Source: Saccharomonospora azurea NA-128 (GTDB lineage: Bacteria; Actinomycetota; Actinomycetes; Mycobacteriales; Pseudonocardiaceae). Taken from it: a stretch of DNA of 50,203 nt. Location of the stretch: positions 1,864,122 through 1,914,324 of the forward strand of contig NZ_CM001466.1 of assembly GCF_000231055.2 (NCBI RefSeq), written 5' to 3'. Made by a program: the position numbers and the translations under genes. The notes below the pieces were generated by a model. It did no database searches. It was not told the origin of the DNA and saw nothing but the letters and a program-made list of their open reading frames with translations. Positions 15,153-32,125 of the stretch are shown piece by piece (within the stretch, counting starts at the first letter, position 1; each line of letters opens with the position of its first letter).

Positions 15153-16490
15153 GTGGCCCGACAGAATGCGACACGACGCGACGCCATGGGCTTCGGTCTC
15201 GCGGCGCTCAACCGGCTCGCCGGAAGTCCTCTGCTCGACCGCGCCGGCCTGCGCAAGCCCGTGGAGAACCTCGTGGCCACGGCCACGCGGCAGGGTTTCC
15301 GCGCGGCGGGTGCAGCGCAGCGGACGTTCAAGGCGACCACCCGGCTCGGCAAGCCCGCGCGGCTGGCCCCGGCCACCGACACGGGACTGTTCGACCTGAC
15401 GCCCGACGACGAGCAGCAGATGATCGTCGAGACCGTCTCGGAGTTCGCCGCCGAACAGCTGCGGCCCGCGGCGGCCGAGGCCGACGACGCGCTCGCTCCC
15501 CCGGACGGCCTGCTCGCCCGCGCGGCCGAACTGGGCCTGACCGTGGTGGGCATCCCGGAGGAGCTCGGCGGCGTCGGCAGCGAACGCTCGGCCGTCACGA
15601 ACGTCCTGGTGGCGGAGGCGCTCGCCCACGGCGACCTCGGGTTGGCCGTGGCCGTGCTCGCCCCGTCGGCGGTGAGCAACGTCCTCGTCCGCCACGGCGA
15701 CGCCCACCAGCAGGCGACCTACCTGCCCGCGTTCACCGGGGAGGACGTGCCCGCCGCCGCACTCGCGCTGCAGGAGCAGGTGCCGCTGTTCGACGTCTTC
15801 GCGCCGCGGACCACCGCCCGCCGCACCCCCCACGGCTACCGCCTCGACGGCGTGAAGAACCTCGTGCCGCGGGCCGCGCAGGCGGAGCTCTTCGTCGTAT
15901 CGGCGAACCTGGAGGGCCCGAAGGGCGCCGGTCCCGCACTGTTCGTGGTGGAGTCGGGCACGAAGGGCGTCGGCATCGAGGCGGAGCCCGCGATGGGACT
16001 GCGCGGCGCCGCCACCGGCAAGCTCGTGCTGGACGACGTGTCGCTGCCCGCGAGCGCACTCGTCGGCGGCGGGAAGCGGGACGTGTTCACCGACGTGGTG
16101 CGCTCGTCGCGGCTGGCGTGGGCGGCGCTCGCGTGCGGCACCGCGAAGGCCGTGCTCGACTACGTGATCCCGTACGTCAACGAGCGGGAGGCGTTCGGGG
16201 AGCCCGTGAGCCACCGGCAGGGCGTGGCGTTCCAGGTGGCCGACATCGGCATCGAGCTGGAAGGCATGCGGCTGGTGACGCTGCGCGCGGCGTCCCGCAT
16301 GGAGCAGGGCAAGCCCCACGCCCGCGAGGTCGCGCTCGCCCGCAAGCTCGCCACCGACAAGGGCATGCAGATCGGCAGCGCGGGCGTGCAACTGCTCGGC
16401 GGACACGGCTTCGTCAAGGAACACCCGGTGGAGCGCTGGTACCGCGATCTGCGCGCGGTCGGCGTCATGGAAGGGGTCGTCTCAGCATGA
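15153..16490 (+). CDS. fadE24: Acyl-CoA dehydrogenase, FadE24-like
   Basis: A 445-residue acyl-CoA dehydrogenase starting at GTG 15153 behind GGAGGGGAAAG. An N-terminal extension (GFGLAALNRLAGSPLLDRAG) precedes the acyl-CoA dehydrogenase core that begins at FDLTPDDEQQMIVETVSEFA; the same extension is known in mycobacterial FadE24. The middle and C-terminal domains include GVKNLVPRA, NEREAFGEPVSHRQGVAFQVAD and GVQLLGGHGFVKEHPVERWYRD. Such enzymes introduce the 2,3-double bond into acyl-CoA using FAD. It overlaps the next gene by 4 nt (ATGA), matching the conserved fadE24-fadE23 pair, whose products may act together. The usual catalytic Glu cannot be placed with certainty by eye. Confidence 0.8.
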   Translation: MARQNATRRDAMGFGLAALNRLAGSPLLDRAGLRKPVENLVATATRQGFRAAGAAQRTFKATTRLGKPARLAPATDTGLFDLTPDDEQQMIVETVSEFAAEQLRPAAAEADDALAPPDGLLARAAELGLTVVGIPEELGGVGSERSAVTNVLVAEALAHGDLGLAVAVLAPSAVSNVLVRHGDAHQQATYLPAFTGEDVPAAALALQEQVPLFDVFAPRTTARRTPHGYRLDGVKNLVPRAAQAELFVVSANLEGPKGAGPALFVVESGTKGVGIEAEPAMGLRGAATGKLVLDDVSLPASALVGGGKRDVFTDVVRSSRLAWAALACGTAKAVLDYVIPYVNEREAFGEPVSHRQGVAFQVADIGIELEGMRLVTLRAASRMEQGKPHAREVALARKLATDKGMQIGSAGVQLLGGHGFVKEHPVERWYRDLRAVGVMEGVVSA

Positions 16491-17695
16491 TCAACCTTGA
16501 GGTCCCGAAGAAGGCCAAGGCGCTGGTCAACCAGGCCCGGCAGGCCGCGACCGAGGTGTTCCGGCCCATCTCGCGCAAGTACGACCGCGCCGAGCACGCG
16601 TATCCGTCCGAGTTGGACATGCTCGCGGCGTTGCTGGACGGGTTGAACACCTCCGGTGAGGGCGGCGCGGGCGCAGCCGGCGTGCGCCGCAAGGACAACA
16701 AGAACTCCGGCGGCAACCGCAACGGCGGCAACCTGCTCACCGTGCTCGGCACCATCGAGCTGTGCTGGGGCGACGTCGCCCTGCTGCTGTCGATGCCCCG
16801 ACAGGGACTCGGCAACGCGGCCATCGCGTCGGTGGCCAACGACGAGCAGCTCGAACGTTTCGGCAAGGTGTGGGCCGCCATGGCCATCACCGAGCCCGGC
16901 TGCGGTTCCGACTCCGCCGCCATCACCACGACAGCGACCAAGGACGGCGACGACTACATCCTCAACGGGGAGAAGATCTTCGTCACCTCCGGGGAACGCG
17001 CCGACGCCGTGGTCGTGTGGGCGACGCTCGACAAGAGCAAGGGCCGCGCCGCGATCAAGTCGTTCGTCGTGGAGAAGGGCACCCCGGGCTTCGAGGTCGT
17101 GCGGCTGGAGCACAAGCTCGGCATCCGTGCCTCCGACACGGCGGTGCTGCGCTTCGACAACTGCCGCGTGCCCGCGAAGAACCTGCTCGGCTCGCCGGAG
17201 ATCGACACCAAGAAGGGTTTCGCGGGGGTCATGCAGACCTTCGACAACACCCGTCCGCTGGTGGCGGCGATGGCGATCGGCGTCGCGCGCGCGGCCCTGG
17301 AGGAAACTCGCCGCCTTCTGGAGGAGGCGGGCGTCGAGGTCGACTACGACAAGCCCGCGCTCGCGCAGCACGCCGCCGCGGCGACGTTCCTGCAGCTCGA
17401 AGCCGACTACGAGGCCGCGTACCTGACGACGCTCGAAGCGGCGTGGATGGCGGACAACCGCAAGCCGAACTCGCTGCAGGCGTCCATCGCGAAGGCCAAG
17501 GCAGGCCGCACGGTCGTCGACATCACCCTCAAGTGCGTCGAGCTCGCGGGCACCCTCGGCTACACCGAGGAATCGCTGCTGGAGAAGTGGGCACGCGACT
17601 CGAAGATCCTCGACATCTTCGAAGGCACGCAACAGATCCAGCAGCTCATCGTCGCCCGCAGGCTGCTGGGCAAGACGAGCAAGGAACTGAAGTAG
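16487..17695 (+). CDS. fadE23: Acyl-CoA dehydrogenase, FadE23-like
   Basis: A 402-residue acyl-CoA dehydrogenase whose ATG overlaps the fadE24 stop (ATGA). It shows the FAD/substrate signature AMAITEPGCGSDSAAITTTA, NGEKIFVTSGERAD, the beta-domain DNCRVPAKNLLG and the C-terminal KWARDSKILDIFEGTQQIQQ, followed by IVARRLLG. The N-terminal EVFRPISRKYDRAEHAYP is typical of FadE23. Together with FadE24 it probably forms a beta-oxidation dehydrogenase step. Its last ~22 codons are duplicated 3 kb downstream (20683-20748). A terminator hairpin follows immediately. Confidence 0.85.
   Translation: MINLEVPKKAKALVNQARQAATEVFRPISRKYDRAEHAYPSELDMLAALLDGLNTSGEGGAGAAGVRRKDNKNSGGNRNGGNLLTVLGTIELCWGDVALLLSMPRQGLGNAAIASVANDEQLERFGKVWAAMAITEPGCGSDSAAITTTATKDGDDYILNGEKIFVTSGERADAVVVWATLDKSKGRAAIKSFVVEKGTPGFEVVRLEHKLGIRASDTAVLRFDNCRVPAKNLLGSPEIDTKKGFAGVMQTFDNTRPLVAAMAIGVARAALEETRRLLEEAGVEVDYDKPALAQHAAAATFLQLEADYEAAYLTTLEAAWMADNRKPNSLQASIAKAKAGRTVVDITLKCVELAGTLGYTEESLLEKWARDSKILDIFEGTQQIQQLIVARRLLGKTSKELK
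17606..17671 (+). repeat. 66-bp direct repeat, copy 1 (inside fadE23 3' end)
   Basis: Identical at 64 of 66 positions to 20683-20748. The two differences (G/A in both cases) are synonymous third-codon changes in the encoded ILDIFEGTQQIQQ... segment, so the second copy derives from a real coding gene. This copy continues naturally to GKTSKELK-stop, the normal FadE23 end. Confidence 0.9.
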
Positions 17696-17704
17696 GCCAG
17701 GAGG

Positions 17705-17748
17705 GAAACCGCCCGTCCACTGCGCTTTCCGCGGTGACGGGCGGTTTC
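17705..17748 (+). terminator. Terminator after fadE23
   Basis: GAAACCGCCCGTC (17705-17717) and GACGGGCGGTTTC (17736-17748) form a perfect 13-bp stem 10 nt after the fadE23 stop. It also faces the 3' end of the convergent small gene ending at 17754. Confidence 0.8.
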
Positions 17749-17753
17749 CGCGT

Positions 17754-18014
17754 TCAGACCCTCACCGTCCGCCCTGGCCCCTCGTGAAGCCCAGTGCGCT
17801 TGATCTCCTCGGCCTTGCGGCGTTCCCGGTCAGCCCAGTACCTCGCCTCGTGGTGGTGGGCTCGGTCGATCTCCGCGACCTCGGCGTAGACGCGCGCGCT
17901 CCGCAGGTAGTACCGCCGCCACTCCGAAGCCGGGGCATCCAATGCCGGGCGGATGCCCTCCAGTGCCAGGTGCGCCTGGCACAACGTCCGCGCTTCCGGA
18001 ATCGACTCGGTCAC
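17754..18014 (-). CDS. AMED_5909-like small protein, function unknown
   Basis: An 86-residue charged protein from GTG 18014, chosen because GGAGG lies 7 nt upstream; a GTG at 18020 overlapping the preceding stop is possible. The middle is helical and rich in Arg, Tyr, Glu and Ala (SEWRRYYLRSARVYAEVAEI, then HHHEARYWADRERRKAEEIK). It resembles, from memory, a small actinomycete family named after AMED_5909, whose members sit near HTH regulators in accessory regions. It is downstream of and 2 nt from the other small minus-strand gene, so they form a two-gene unit. Confidence 0.6.
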   Translation of the reverse strand: MTESIPEARTLCQAHLALEGIRPALDAPASEWRRYYLRSARVYAEVAEIDRAHHHEARYWADRERRKAEEIKRTGLHEGPGRTVRV

Positions 18015-18016
18015 CC

Positions 18017-18280
18017 TCACACCTCCCTGCTCAGCCCGGCCGCTACCGGCACGTTGGCCTGCCCGCTCTCCCGACCGACCCATTCGGCCAGCTCCGCAGC
18101 CGCTCTCCCGAGGTCTTCCAGGAAACGCCGGAAGTCCGGCCATTCCGCCGGGTCCGCAGGCGGCACAATCGCCACACGATCGGGCTCGCAACAATCGACC
18201 AACGTGGCCTCCTCGTCCACGAAACAGAAAGTCCGGCTCCCGGCCTGCCCGCCCGGACAGAACGTCACCTCGAATGGCAC
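18017..18280 (-). CDS. Hypothetical protein (87 residues)
   Basis: Starts at GTG 18280 with GGGGGAGGAG about 6 nt upstream; earlier in-frame starts lack a ribosome-binding site. The product begins VPFEVTFCPGGQAGSRTFCF, carries four cysteines (two in DCCEPDRVA) and a helical acidic segment (PDFRRFLEDLGRAAAELAEW). No family is recognised. It is the first gene of a two-gene minus-strand unit divergent from the DUF5919-like gene. Confidence 0.55.
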   Translation of the reverse strand: MPFEVTFCPGGQAGSRTFCFVDEEATLVDCCEPDRVAIVPPADPAEWPDFRRFLEDLGRAAAELAEWVGRESGQANVPVAAGLSREV

Positions 18281-18578
18281 CGTTCGCTCCTCCCCCGACA
18301 CGTCAGGCCCACGCCGACCATCGCAAGCTCTGTGGGAACGCCTCATCGAACTCGCTTGAGAACCAGCCCCCAGCGAGGCGCCATCGTGTCGTAAACCCCT
18401 CTTGTCGTCACCCGTGTCGCCGCCTGTACGGCGGCACATCACAAGGCTCGTCCAGGCTAAGGTCCCGTCACGACACCGCATATGTCGCGTCTCGAACTTC
18501 TGCCCCTCGTCAAGTCTCGTCCTTGTCTCATTCTCGTACTAGGGTCGACTACTGACCGGCGTCATGGGGGATGAGTCG

Positions 18579-19463
18579 ATGGCTGACAAGCCGACCGTGC
18601 TGAAGGTGTTGCTACGACAACGGCATCTGCAGGGACACCGCGCGTTCTGCAAGGAGTACGACAAGCTCGCGAAGAAGCTGGAGCCTGACCTGGTAGGGAG
18701 TGGGCCGAGTAAGGCCCAGTTCTACCGTTGGCTGTCCCGCGACCTGCAAGGGCTGCCCTATGCCCACCACTGCCGCATCCTCGAAGCGATGTTCCCCGGC
18801 TGGACCGCCGAGCAGCTCTTCCAGGAGCACACGGGCGACATCGAGTTCGTGCCCGAGCCACCGAACACCGCCGCCGCTACGACGAGCAAACCAAAACCGG
18901 CACAGCACACCGTGCAGGGAATGGCCGACGTAACCGCCGTCTTCCCCAGCCGCCCCGCATTCTCGCACGAGATCCCGCCGCACAAACTCTTCGACGGCGC
19001 TGAGCAGATCAGCATGGTCGGGCTCTCGCTCAACCTGCTCTGCCAGAGCTACCCCGACCGATCCCTGCTCGACCTGCTCGAATCGGGAACCGTCGTCCGG
19101 TGTCTGTTCCTCGACCCGGCCGGTCGCTACATCAAGGAACGCGAGCGGGAGGAATCCCACCCCGAGGGCGTGCTGTCCACGCTCACGACGCTCAACATCC
19201 AGACCCTGCAGCGGCTCCAAGGCAAACTCTCGCCCGAGGCACGCGGGAACCTACGCATCCGCACCTCCGACGAGGCCGTGCGGTTCAACATCACCGTCAT
19301 CGACGACGCGACATGCGTCGTGCAGCTCTACCTACCGGACGCGCGAGGCGTCGAGTCCCCAACGTTCGTGGTCGAGAAGCAACCCGGCCCGCCGGGCCTG
19401 TTCGAGACGTTCTCTCAGGTGTTCGAGTCGATGTGGGCGCGAAGCAAGGAGATCACCGCGTGA
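18579..19463 (+). CDS. HTH-type protein with C-terminal DUF5919-like domain
   Basis: A 294-residue protein. ATG 18579 is preferred because GGGGGA lies 7 nt before it and homologues that I recall begin there; ATG 18564 in the same frame is the alternative. Residues ~5-85 form a helical N-terminal domain (VLLRQRHLQGHRAFCKEYDK, then RWLSRDLQGLPYAHHCRILE), a regulator-like DNA-binding unit. A Pro/Thr-rich linker follows. The C-terminal domain (~125-290) has SMVGLSLNLLCQSYPDRSLL, GTVVRCLFLDPAGR and VIDDATCVVQLYLPD, which I recall as DUF5919 and which looks PLD-like in layout. Its stop overlaps the phosphatase start (GTGA), indicating tight coupling. The signal it senses is unknown. Confidence 0.65.
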   Translation: MADKPTVLKVLLRQRHLQGHRAFCKEYDKLAKKLEPDLVGSGPSKAQFYRWLSRDLQGLPYAHHCRILEAMFPGWTAEQLFQEHTGDIEFVPEPPNTAAATTSKPKPAQHTVQGMADVTAVFPSRPAFSHEIPPHKLFDGAEQISMVGLSLNLLCQSYPDRSLLDLLESGTVVRCLFLDPAGRYIKEREREESHPEGVLSTLTTLNIQTLQRLQGKLSPEARGNLRIRTSDEAVRFNITVIDDATCVVQLYLPDARGVESPTFVVEKQPGPPGLFETFSQVFESMWARSKEITA

Positions 19464-20254
19464 AGGACCTGAACACACTGCTCGCCGTGGCGCAGGATGC
19501 CGTCGACATCGGCGCGAACCTGATGACCACCTCGGCGCCGGGCACCGTCAGCACCAAGGGCGACCGAGACTATGTGACCGAGCTGGACGTGCGAATTCAG
19601 CATGAGATCCGCGACCACCTCGCCCGCGCCACCCCCGACATCGACTTTCTTGGGGAAGAGGAGGGCGGTGGGGCGATCGATGAGAGCACCGACTACGTGT
19701 GGGTACTCGACCCCATCGACGGCACCTCGAACTTCGCCCACGGCATCCCGCTCTGCGCCACCTCACTAGCCCTGGTTCACCGAGGCGAACCCGTCGTAGG
19801 CGTGATCGTCGCGCCGTTCCTGAACCTGCGCTACCACGCCACCAAGGGTGGCGGAGCGTACTGCAACGACAAACCCATACACGCCAGCGAGACGACCGAC
19901 CTCAGCCGTGCCATCGTCTCCATCGGTGACTACGCCACCGGACCCGGAGCCGCCGAGAAGAACCGCCGCCGCTTCGCCGTCACCCAAGCCCTAGCCGAAA
20001 ACGTCGAACGTGTCCGCATGTTCGGCGCAGCCTCACTCGACCTGGCCTGGGTCGCAGAAGGCCGCACCGACGCCTGCGTGATCCTCAGCAACAAGCCATG
20101 GGACATGGCTGCGGGCGTGTTGATAGCAAGAGAATCGAGTGCCTCAATCTCGGATATCAATGATTCGGACTACCGCTTCAGCTCTAGATCAACCTTCTCT
20201 TCCAATTTCTACATCAGAGCGACTCTAGTCTCACTCTTGAATCGGACCTGCTGA
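19460..20254 (+). CDS. Inositol monophosphatase-family phosphatase
   Basis: A 264-residue protein starting at GTG 19460 inside the preceding stop. The Mg2+-dependent Li+-sensitive phosphatase motifs are intact: GEEEGG (E66-E68), DPIDGTSNFAHG (D84, D87) and WDMAAGVLIARE near residue 212. The family hydrolyses inositol monophosphates, fructose-1,6-bisphosphate, histidinol phosphate or 3'-phosphoadenosine nucleotides; specificity is not evident. The last ~45 codons are AT-richer than the rest, though the C-terminus still resembles the family. The GTGA overlap with an HTH/DUF5919-like gene suggests a regulatory or stress/defence role rather than housekeeping metabolism; this is inference. Confidence 0.8.
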   Translation: MKDLNTLLAVAQDAVDIGANLMTTSAPGTVSTKGDRDYVTELDVRIQHEIRDHLARATPDIDFLGEEEGGGAIDESTDYVWVLDPIDGTSNFAHGIPLCATSLALVHRGEPVVGVIVAPFLNLRYHATKGGGAYCNDKPIHASETTDLSRAIVSIGDYATGPGAAEKNRRRFAVTQALAENVERVRMFGAASLDLAWVAEGRTDACVILSNKPWDMAAGVLIARESSASISDINDSDYRFSSRSTFSSNFYIRATLVSLLNRTC

Positions 20255-20682
20255 GGCGCCGGGACTTTCGGACTCAATTGAACGGGTGAGCAAATATTCG
20301 GTGAATCACCGACGCTAGACTTTTTTAGCCAACTCCCGCATTGCTGTGGCCACTTGACCCGGCCACCATTCAACCTTTCCACAAGAAACATGGAGGGTAA
20401 TATGTGGGGTTACTCTTTTGTGGAATCGTCGCATTCGCCAACTCTGACACAATGAAAGCATCTACGCGCCTTTGGAGCTGCGCCAACCGACAACGGTCGG
20501 CGGGCCGCGTGCTCGGCTGCATGTCGAGGTGGAGGAGACGGGCTGGGCAGGCTCGCGCCAGGCCGTCTCCATGCCGTGTTAGGTGGAGCGGAACCGGGTA
20601 GCCGCGAGGTTCACGAAAAGTCTGCGCAGGTCCGAGGCGGTTTTCACTTTTTCCCCTCCAGGTTGGCGCTGACCGGCCGCGA
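20255..20682. other. Non-coding, AT-richer island end
   Basis: No gene is supported here. The first ~200 bp are distinctly less GC-rich than the window average, and a T6 run occurs near 20320. Short open frames have no recognisable product. On the minus strand KTASDLRRLFVNLAATRF can be read near 20595-20650, which may be a decayed coding remnant. Confidence 0.4.
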
Positions 20683-20748
20683 ATCCTCGACATCTTCGAA
20701 GGCACACAACAGATCCAGCAACTCATCGTCGCCCGCAGGCTGCTGGGC
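20683..20748 (+). repeat. 66-bp direct repeat, copy 2 (fragment of a fadE23 3' end)
   Basis: Encodes the same ILDIFEGTQQIQQ...RRLLG peptide as fadE23 with two synonymous differences, then diverges and reaches a stop at 20779-20781. There is no start or upstream dehydrogenase sequence, so it is a non-functional gene fragment. It marks the right border of the putative island. Confidence 0.85.
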
Positions 20749-32106: not shown

Positions 32107-32125
32107 CTTGGGCGTGGTGACATTC

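Follow-up and report, generated by a model that had tools for sequence, protein, structure and literature searches.

A probable decayed integrative and conjugative element at the 3' end of an acyl-CoA dehydrogenase gene in Saccharomonospora azurea NA-128

We analyzed a stretch of 50,203 nucleotides of the chromosome of Saccharomonospora azurea NA-128 (hereafter the window; contig NZ_CM001466.1, positions 1,864,122 to 1,914,324), in which part of the 3' end of a fadE23-like acyl-CoA dehydrogenase gene is repeated downstream of that gene. Actinomycete integrative and conjugative elements (AICEs), of which pSAM2 is the type example, are mobile elements that integrate into host chromosomes. We found that window positions 17600-20748 are very probably the decayed remnant of an AICE inserted at the 3' end of fadE23. 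The gene name fadE23 was taken from an initial annotation of the sequence, and its start codon is as translated in the locus comparison. Coordinates are window positions unless a locus is named; genomes and loci carry our G and L numbers.

Results

Genes and repeats at the fadE23 locus

The features of the locus are as follows.

16487-17695, plus strand: fadE23-like acyl-CoA dehydrogenase (Pfam Acyl-CoA_dh_1/_M), the target gene; its 3' end is attL, apparently restored by the element
17600-17622, plus strand: putative attL core TCGAAGAT-CCTCGAC-ATCTTCGA, an 8-bp inverted repeat with a 7-bp spacer, encoding (S)KILDIFEG (core pattern match)
17606-17671, plus strand: left copy of the 66-bp repeat, attL side (repeat search)
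17696-17750, plus strand: probable left tip of the element; a terminator-like inverted repeat lies directly 3' of the fadE23 stop codon (homology to the left ends of three intact elements)
17751-17804, no strand: deletion junction region, with about 5 kb (int-repSA-tra) gone relative to intact elements (blastn colinearity)
17754-18017, minus strand: small conserved element gene, cargo1, start codon uncertain (homologues in intact elements)
18017-18481, minus strand: doubtful open reading frame, cargo2 (open reading frame only)
18564-19463, plus strand: DUF5919 protein (PF19319, E 3.2e-29; 88-91% identical in intact elements)
19460-20254, plus strand: inositol monophosphatase family protein (PF00459, E 4.5e-56; 82-83% identical in intact elements)
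20255-20502, no strand: variable lower-GC stretch of the element (GC profile)
20503-20748, plus strand: right end of the element, arm and attR (82-84% identical to the right ends of L040, L041 and L042)
20683-20748, plus strand: right copy of the 66-bp repeat, attR, truncated at 20748 (repeat search and alignment to intact elements)

The 3' end of fadE23 occurs twice. Positions 17606-17671 recur at 20683-20748 as a 66-nucleotide direct repeat (64 of 66 positions identical, 97%), 3077 nucleotides from start to start. As the initial annotation had claimed, the two differences, at 17629 and 17644 (ACG/ACA and CAG/CAA), are synonymous third-codon changes. In a search of the whole genome the second copy gave an E value of 2.4e-24, far beyond what chance would produce. 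The same annotation took the repeat for the last 66 bp of the gene, which is wrong: the block stops 21 bp upstream of the fadE23 stop codon (17693-17695). Because the repeat continues through the stop codon in the intact relatives described below, we conclude that the right copy, attR, is truncated; the left copy is attL. Both keep the spacer and the right half-site of the recombination core, and the left half-site of attR is CGAAT, compared to AAGAT, GAGAT or AAAAT in intact elements.

No mobility genes were recognized in the window. The best integrase match had an E value of 0.74, and RepSA-type replication genes and FtsK-type transfer genes gave matches with E values of at least 0.03 only. 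An integrase of the family described below was not found in the source genome at E <= 1e-60. The initial annotation was correct that no integrase is present, and the distant recombinase remnant that it proposed seeking in the island was searched for in the window, where none is left.

Intact elements occupy the same site in other genomes

We searched for the 3' end of fadE23 in 297 genomes of the bacterial family. At least seven have two copies on the same strand of one contig, within 40 kb (G000, G041, G109, G130, G194, G247 and G259); an eighth is G009. In G041, G130 (Prauserella flavalba) and G109 (P. endophytica), the two copies enclose 10-11 kb. These intact elements (loci L040, from G041, L041 and L042) contain, in order from fadE23, genes for a tyrosine integrase, RepSA, an FtsK-type protein, a small protein, a DUF5919 protein and an inositol monophosphatase. 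In L040, Pfam identified the integrase (PF00589), RepSA (PF20199), FtsK_SpoIIIE (PF01580), DUF5919 and Inositol_P. FtsK of L041 was identified by Pfam, and the integrase and rep of G130 and G109 by homology. L040-L042 each have a tyrosine integrase, RepSA and FtsK_SpoIIIE between att repeats, as AICEs do, with tra of L042 lying outside the Pfam scan. The suspicion that an acyl-CoA dehydrogenase gene served as integration target is upheld by these elements, which bear an integrase and sit at this fadE23 3' end in all three genomes.

The window is colinear with the intact elements. Four window blocks lie in order on L040: 17560-17750 (left end), 17805-17913 (small gene), 18314-20117 (DUF5919 and most of the monophosphatase) and 20503-20747 (right arm and attR). 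The order is the same on L041 and L042, with a shorter second block. About 5 kb with int, rep and tra are absent between the first two blocks; blastn blocks stop at 17749-17750 and restart at 17805 (L040) or 17824 (L041 and L042), and protein matches of cargo1 extend to about 17760 in L041 and L042. Both ends of the element are present at the same site, the right one truncated inside attR.

An empty site was found in G079, a genome whose genus code is shared with the three occupied genomes and which has one fadE23 3' end among the matches listed. Compared to G130, its left side matches to the stop codon, and from the core onward it matches the right side, continuing into the flank for about 240 bp, which is the pattern expected of an empty site; the initial annotation had proposed looking for such sites in related genomes. 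The stretch just behind fadE23 is not seen in G079. We read this stretch as the left tip of the element because intact elements have it and the empty site does not.

Genes carried between the repeats

The initial annotation counted four genes between the repeats. Two of these are solid, the DUF5919 and inositol monophosphatase genes identified by Pfam; cargo1 is supported by its homologues, and cargo2 is doubtful. The cargo1 protein is 52-60% identical to proteins of the intact elements, where its gene is between tra and DUF5919, and it had no match in a Pfam search. There was no Pfam match for cargo2 and no homologue in L040-L042. The DUF5919 protein might be a regulator, which is a guess; DUF5919 is not mentioned in the literature searched. 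For the two cargo genes, dN/dS between the window and other loci was 0.07-0.30, values that mix time in live elements and time in relics. The fadE23-like protein itself is 97.8% identical to that of G003.

The right end of the element is lower in GC, as the initial annotation had noted in calling it AT-rich. In 300-base windows, GC was 0.507-0.560 at 20100-20549, 0.64-0.66 at 18600-20099, and 0.66-0.73 from 20700. Positions 20117-20503 had no blastn match in L040-L042, and the final approximately 45 codons of the monophosphatase are element-specific, with a breakpoint near 20117. Identity of the monophosphatase is high until just past a WDMAAG motif (20117) and then about 50% over these last codons. 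The drop holds in the four pairs compared (window; L041, L042, L040, L022), even between two Prauserella elements, and in that one pair, which was extended, the 600 bp downstream of the gene are equally unlike. The breakpoint looks like the fixed edge of a swapped cargo module. A related Streptomyces integrase is at the 3' end of an inositol monophosphatase gene (L101 11268-12071), of the same family as the AICE cargo gene.

The element appears to have decayed within the genus

The left-tip stretch with its terminator-like inverted repeat is behind fadE23 in six of 12 genus genomes (G000, G002, G003, G004, G009 and G010); in the other six, the match ends near the fadE23 stop codon. Across the junction of the int-rep-tra deletion, G003, G004 and G009 align to the window without a break. 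Because they share this junction, we infer a single old deletion that was followed by separate decay, although exchange between species could also account for the shared junction. Among the matches listed, a second fadE23 3' end was found in only G000 and G009 of the 12 genomes. The second copy in G009 is decayed and lies 6.8 kb downstream of fadE23 (L021 8404-8481); it includes the stop region and is just before another gene, which we take to be mnhA. Between the two copies, G009 has genes other than the AICE cargo, except for a piece of the small gene.

The initial annotation had named, as evidence that would speak against integration, relatives with the same four genes elsewhere and no repeat. 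This is half the case: G003, G004 and G002 carry some of the genes, in the same place, without the right repeat. In our reading these genomes lost the repeat as decay went on, since G003, G004 and G009 share an uninterrupted deletion junction with the window.

Other insertions at the fadE23 3' end

A prophage uses the same site in G247 (L038 and L039, C1:302000-341500). It has portal, head, tail and endolysin genes, occupies about 36 kb between the fadE23 3' copies, and shares the core. Its tyrosine integrase is its own, unmatched by the AICE integrase search at E <= 1e-60.

Short duplications of the fadE23 3' end were found in G259 (L043; copies 2.3 kb apart, with an HTH/TPR gene between them) and G194 (L044; 1.0 kb apart), and the AICE integrase was not found in either genome at E <= 1e-60. 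A fadE23 3' fragment is on contig 60 of G021 (L034 8111-8151), a different contig from that genome's fadE23. In a search for a similar plasmid-borne island, 55 records matched and none had 80% query coverage; the 20 matches listed were confined to the monophosphatase and DUF5919 regions or to the dehydrogenase end.

Integrases most similar to that of L040 are found beside acyl-CoA dehydrogenase genes

We compared integrase loci using the L040 integrase as query. The set comprised 80 loci from named genomes, the best 80 of 549 confirmed relatives, and 20 further loci from the top of a second match list at E <= 1e-60, below three that had already been retrieved. Removal of seven of the 100 as duplicates left 93. 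Thirty of these integrases are at least 55% identical to that of L040, a limit set after the data were seen, and an acyl-CoA dehydrogenase gene is beside 29 of them. The gene ends within 450 bp of int in 23 of the 30 and is 0.5-2 kb away in six. In the remaining locus, L143, the contig ends 433 bp after int, and a dehydrogenase 3' fragment is on the other side. Automatic labeling gave 24 dehydrogenase targets, and the counts of 23 and six come from a recount measured from the best integrase match; the two differ because in L144, as in L051, a second integrase fragment separates int from the gene. These fragments (L051 2526-2657; L144 14991-15215, in the orientation of the recount) look like the product of a later element inserting next to one already present.

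None of the 63 integrases with less than 55% identity received a dehydrogenase label by the automatic rule alone, and two of them that were also inspected in the recount, L066 and L069, are without a dehydrogenase gene. The genes beside these 63 encode CAP proteins (15), glutamine synthetases (6), TAP-like hydrolases (5) and others (29), with no candidate in eight. Target genes were named by Pfam from 10 representatives, two of which are dehydrogenases. Around the end of int (100 bp before it to 600 bp after it), none of the 80 loci of named genomes has a tRNA gene, some of these loci having little flank.

The phylogeny suggests, from sequence, that this group of integrases may have switched targets. 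In a tree of 93 rows, the 30 integrases are on one branch (support 98 in the SH-like approximate likelihood ratio test, SH-aLRT) together with a 31st row, L066. In a tree of the 30 and four outgroup rows, the 30 were separated with support of 100/100. Grouping the six fadE23 users as one clade was rejected (approximately unbiased test, p-AU 0.0001); how these users group had already been seen on an earlier tree. Because a single clade of fadE23 users is rejected, use of fadE23 requires at least two gains or losses on the tree. One set of residues, presumably the catalytic R-H-R-H-Y, is invariant in 30 aligned rows (L040 and 29 of the 30).

The putative recombination core has the same spacer in attL and attR where both were found

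Across the groups of paralogues, the upstream edge of identity between attL and attR is at the same codons. The edge is inside AGAT-N7-ATCT(T/A)CGA(A/G)GG, the DNA for KIxxI(F/Y)EG, and the core would be an inverted repeat around the 7-bp spacer. A tyrosine recombinase core consists of inverted half-sites around a spacer of 6-8 bp that is identical in attL and attR. A strict form of the pattern was searched in 31 loci (L040 and the 30) and found in 25 attL sites and 14 attR sites, with both cores in 12 loci. In all 12 of these, the spacer is identical in attL and attR, as expected of such a core with crossover presumably within it; in the other 19 loci, the strict pattern did not find both cores. 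Equal spacers fit a rule in which the spacers must match, without proving it.

Spacers differ between groups of target genes. The fadE23 spacers are CCTGGAC, CCTCGAC or TATGGAC, and those of other dehydrogenase groups are CACCCAG or CACGCAG, CTTCACC, and CTACGAC. The core pattern has two matches in the 4.76-Mb source genome (none in the reversed control): fadE23, and an acyl-CoA dehydrogenase gene that is 85% identical to a target in Amycolatopsis.

Discussion

We believe that the locus arose as follows. A tyrosine integrase would have acted on attP and an attB located within the 3' end of fadE23, with crossover most likely in the 7-bp spacer between the inverted half-sites formed by the KILDIFEG codons. 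DNA of the element would have supplied a synonymous 3' end, keeping fadE23 whole, and the displaced end would have been left as attR. Later, probably in this order, a deletion of about 5 kb would have taken int, repSA and tra, the right end would have been truncated, and one half-site of attR altered. The unit is probably immobile. The initial annotation had proposed a stripped or previously unrecognized small integrative unit; "stripped" is borne out by the colinear intact elements, and "unrecognized" is not, since AICEs are a known class.

Three other explanations were considered. Ordinary segmental duplication or illegitimate recombination, without any mobile element, could have placed a copy of the 3' end of fadE23 3 kb downstream, an origin that would suit the window's lack of an integrase and has a parallel in the fragment away from fadE23 on contig 60 of G021. 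However, positions 20503-20682 share homology with the right arms of the intact elements, which bear an integrase, and so do the left end and cargo with their counterparts there; we rejected a local duplication, which is very unlikely, on the basis of this colinearity. That the inserted element was a phage rather than an AICE is extremely improbable. A prophage with another tyrosine integrase does occupy the same fadE23 3' end in G247, but DUF5919 and the monophosphatase of the window match AICE cargo at 82-91% and the right arm matches at 82-84% DNA identity, and a phage origin was rejected on these grounds.

There is a small chance that the unit can still be mobilized in trans by a related integrase of another element. 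Such a unit would be a cis-mobilizable element (CIME), which has intact attL and attR and no mobility genes of its own. Both repeats are present in the window and keep the spacer and right half-site, and related, diverged integrases (52% identity) occur in the same genus, in G002 and G005. On the other hand, attR is truncated and its left half-site is altered, the genome is without an integrase of the family at E <= 1e-60, and the shared deletion junction suggests long residence. We think mobilization in trans is unlikely, and favor an AICE remnant that has lost its mobility.

Several observations do not sit easily with this interpretation or with the proposed role of the integrase group. Remnants of int, rep and tra in the window amount to chance-level matches (best E 0.03). 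The two differences in 66 positions between attR and attL are, by our estimate, fewer than expected should the relic date back to the junction that it shares with G004; the likeness of the two sites despite a seemingly old deletion may require gene conversion or later exchange. Beyond 20748, the window is unlike the flank of the intact elements, and the gene that adjoins attR in those elements, which we take to encode an LLM-type oxidoreductase, is 11 kb further on in the window, at 32108. This gene was not found at the empty site of G079 either, where the next matching gene is the following one. For the integrase group, the dehydrogenase gene is 0.5-2 kb from int in L051, L064, L132, L138, L140 and L144. 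L066, which is 51% identical and on a long branch, groups with the 30, and the 5.5 kb that follow its int contain no dehydrogenase gene. Equal spacers would result as well from plain homology of two 3' ends. In a Streptomyces population, integrase sequence and integration site are reported to be uncorrelated, unlike here (PMC9513070).

One motif appears to serve this group of integrases as attB in several acyl-CoA dehydrogenase paralogues, between which the group appears to have switched. Judging from the sequences compared, it is probable that one lineage of AICE integrases has as attB the DNA for the C-terminal KIxxI(F/Y)EG of these enzymes. With half-sites in conserved codons, only the 7-bp spacer would have to match attP, and elements could hop between paralogues by changing the spacer and 3' tail, leaving the host gene intact. 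The window would then be a fossil left by a single insertion of this kind, and the fadE23 3' end would have served as a landing site time and again within the bacterial family. This would tie a group of integrases to one protein family through a simple attB rule, conserved half-sites and a matching 7-bp spacer. If true, it explains how an element uses a coding gene harmlessly and changes its target between paralogues. It also provides candidate integrases for insertion behind acyl-CoA dehydrogenase genes, together with a way to detect relics that would escape searches relying on int, rep or tra.

Comparison with known elements

AICEs, their decay and their coding-gene targets were already known. 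In a survey of Streptomyces AICEs, insertion sites were 36 tRNA genes, 14 protein-coding genes and one intergenic site (PMC9513070). According to another source, attR was usually the 3' end of a tRNA gene, and the word dehydrogenase is absent from that source (PMC3218068). No AICE that targets the 3' end of an acyl-CoA dehydrogenase gene was reported in the literature searched, from which subscription journals were mostly missing.

In prophiT49-3, a prophage of M. abscessus (attB-21), attB is reported to be likewise in an acyl-CoA dehydrogenase (fadE) gene (PMC9934374). That prophage differs in using a serine integrase and in inserting around position 280 of the 1140-bp gene, which it likely inactivates, rather than at the 3' end. 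The defective AICEs and traces in Streptomyces resemble the island described here: they have cargo between two direct repeats after loss of mobility, and they were found by comparing sites between strains (PMC9513070). They differ in that a partial integrase is left there and none was found here, and in their targets and hosts. The intact relatives of the island resemble AICEs in their tyrosine integrase, RepSA-type initiator, FtsK-like transfer gene, flanking direct repeats and size of about 10 kb, and differ in that their target is the 3' end of acyl-CoA dehydrogenase genes and not a tRNA gene.

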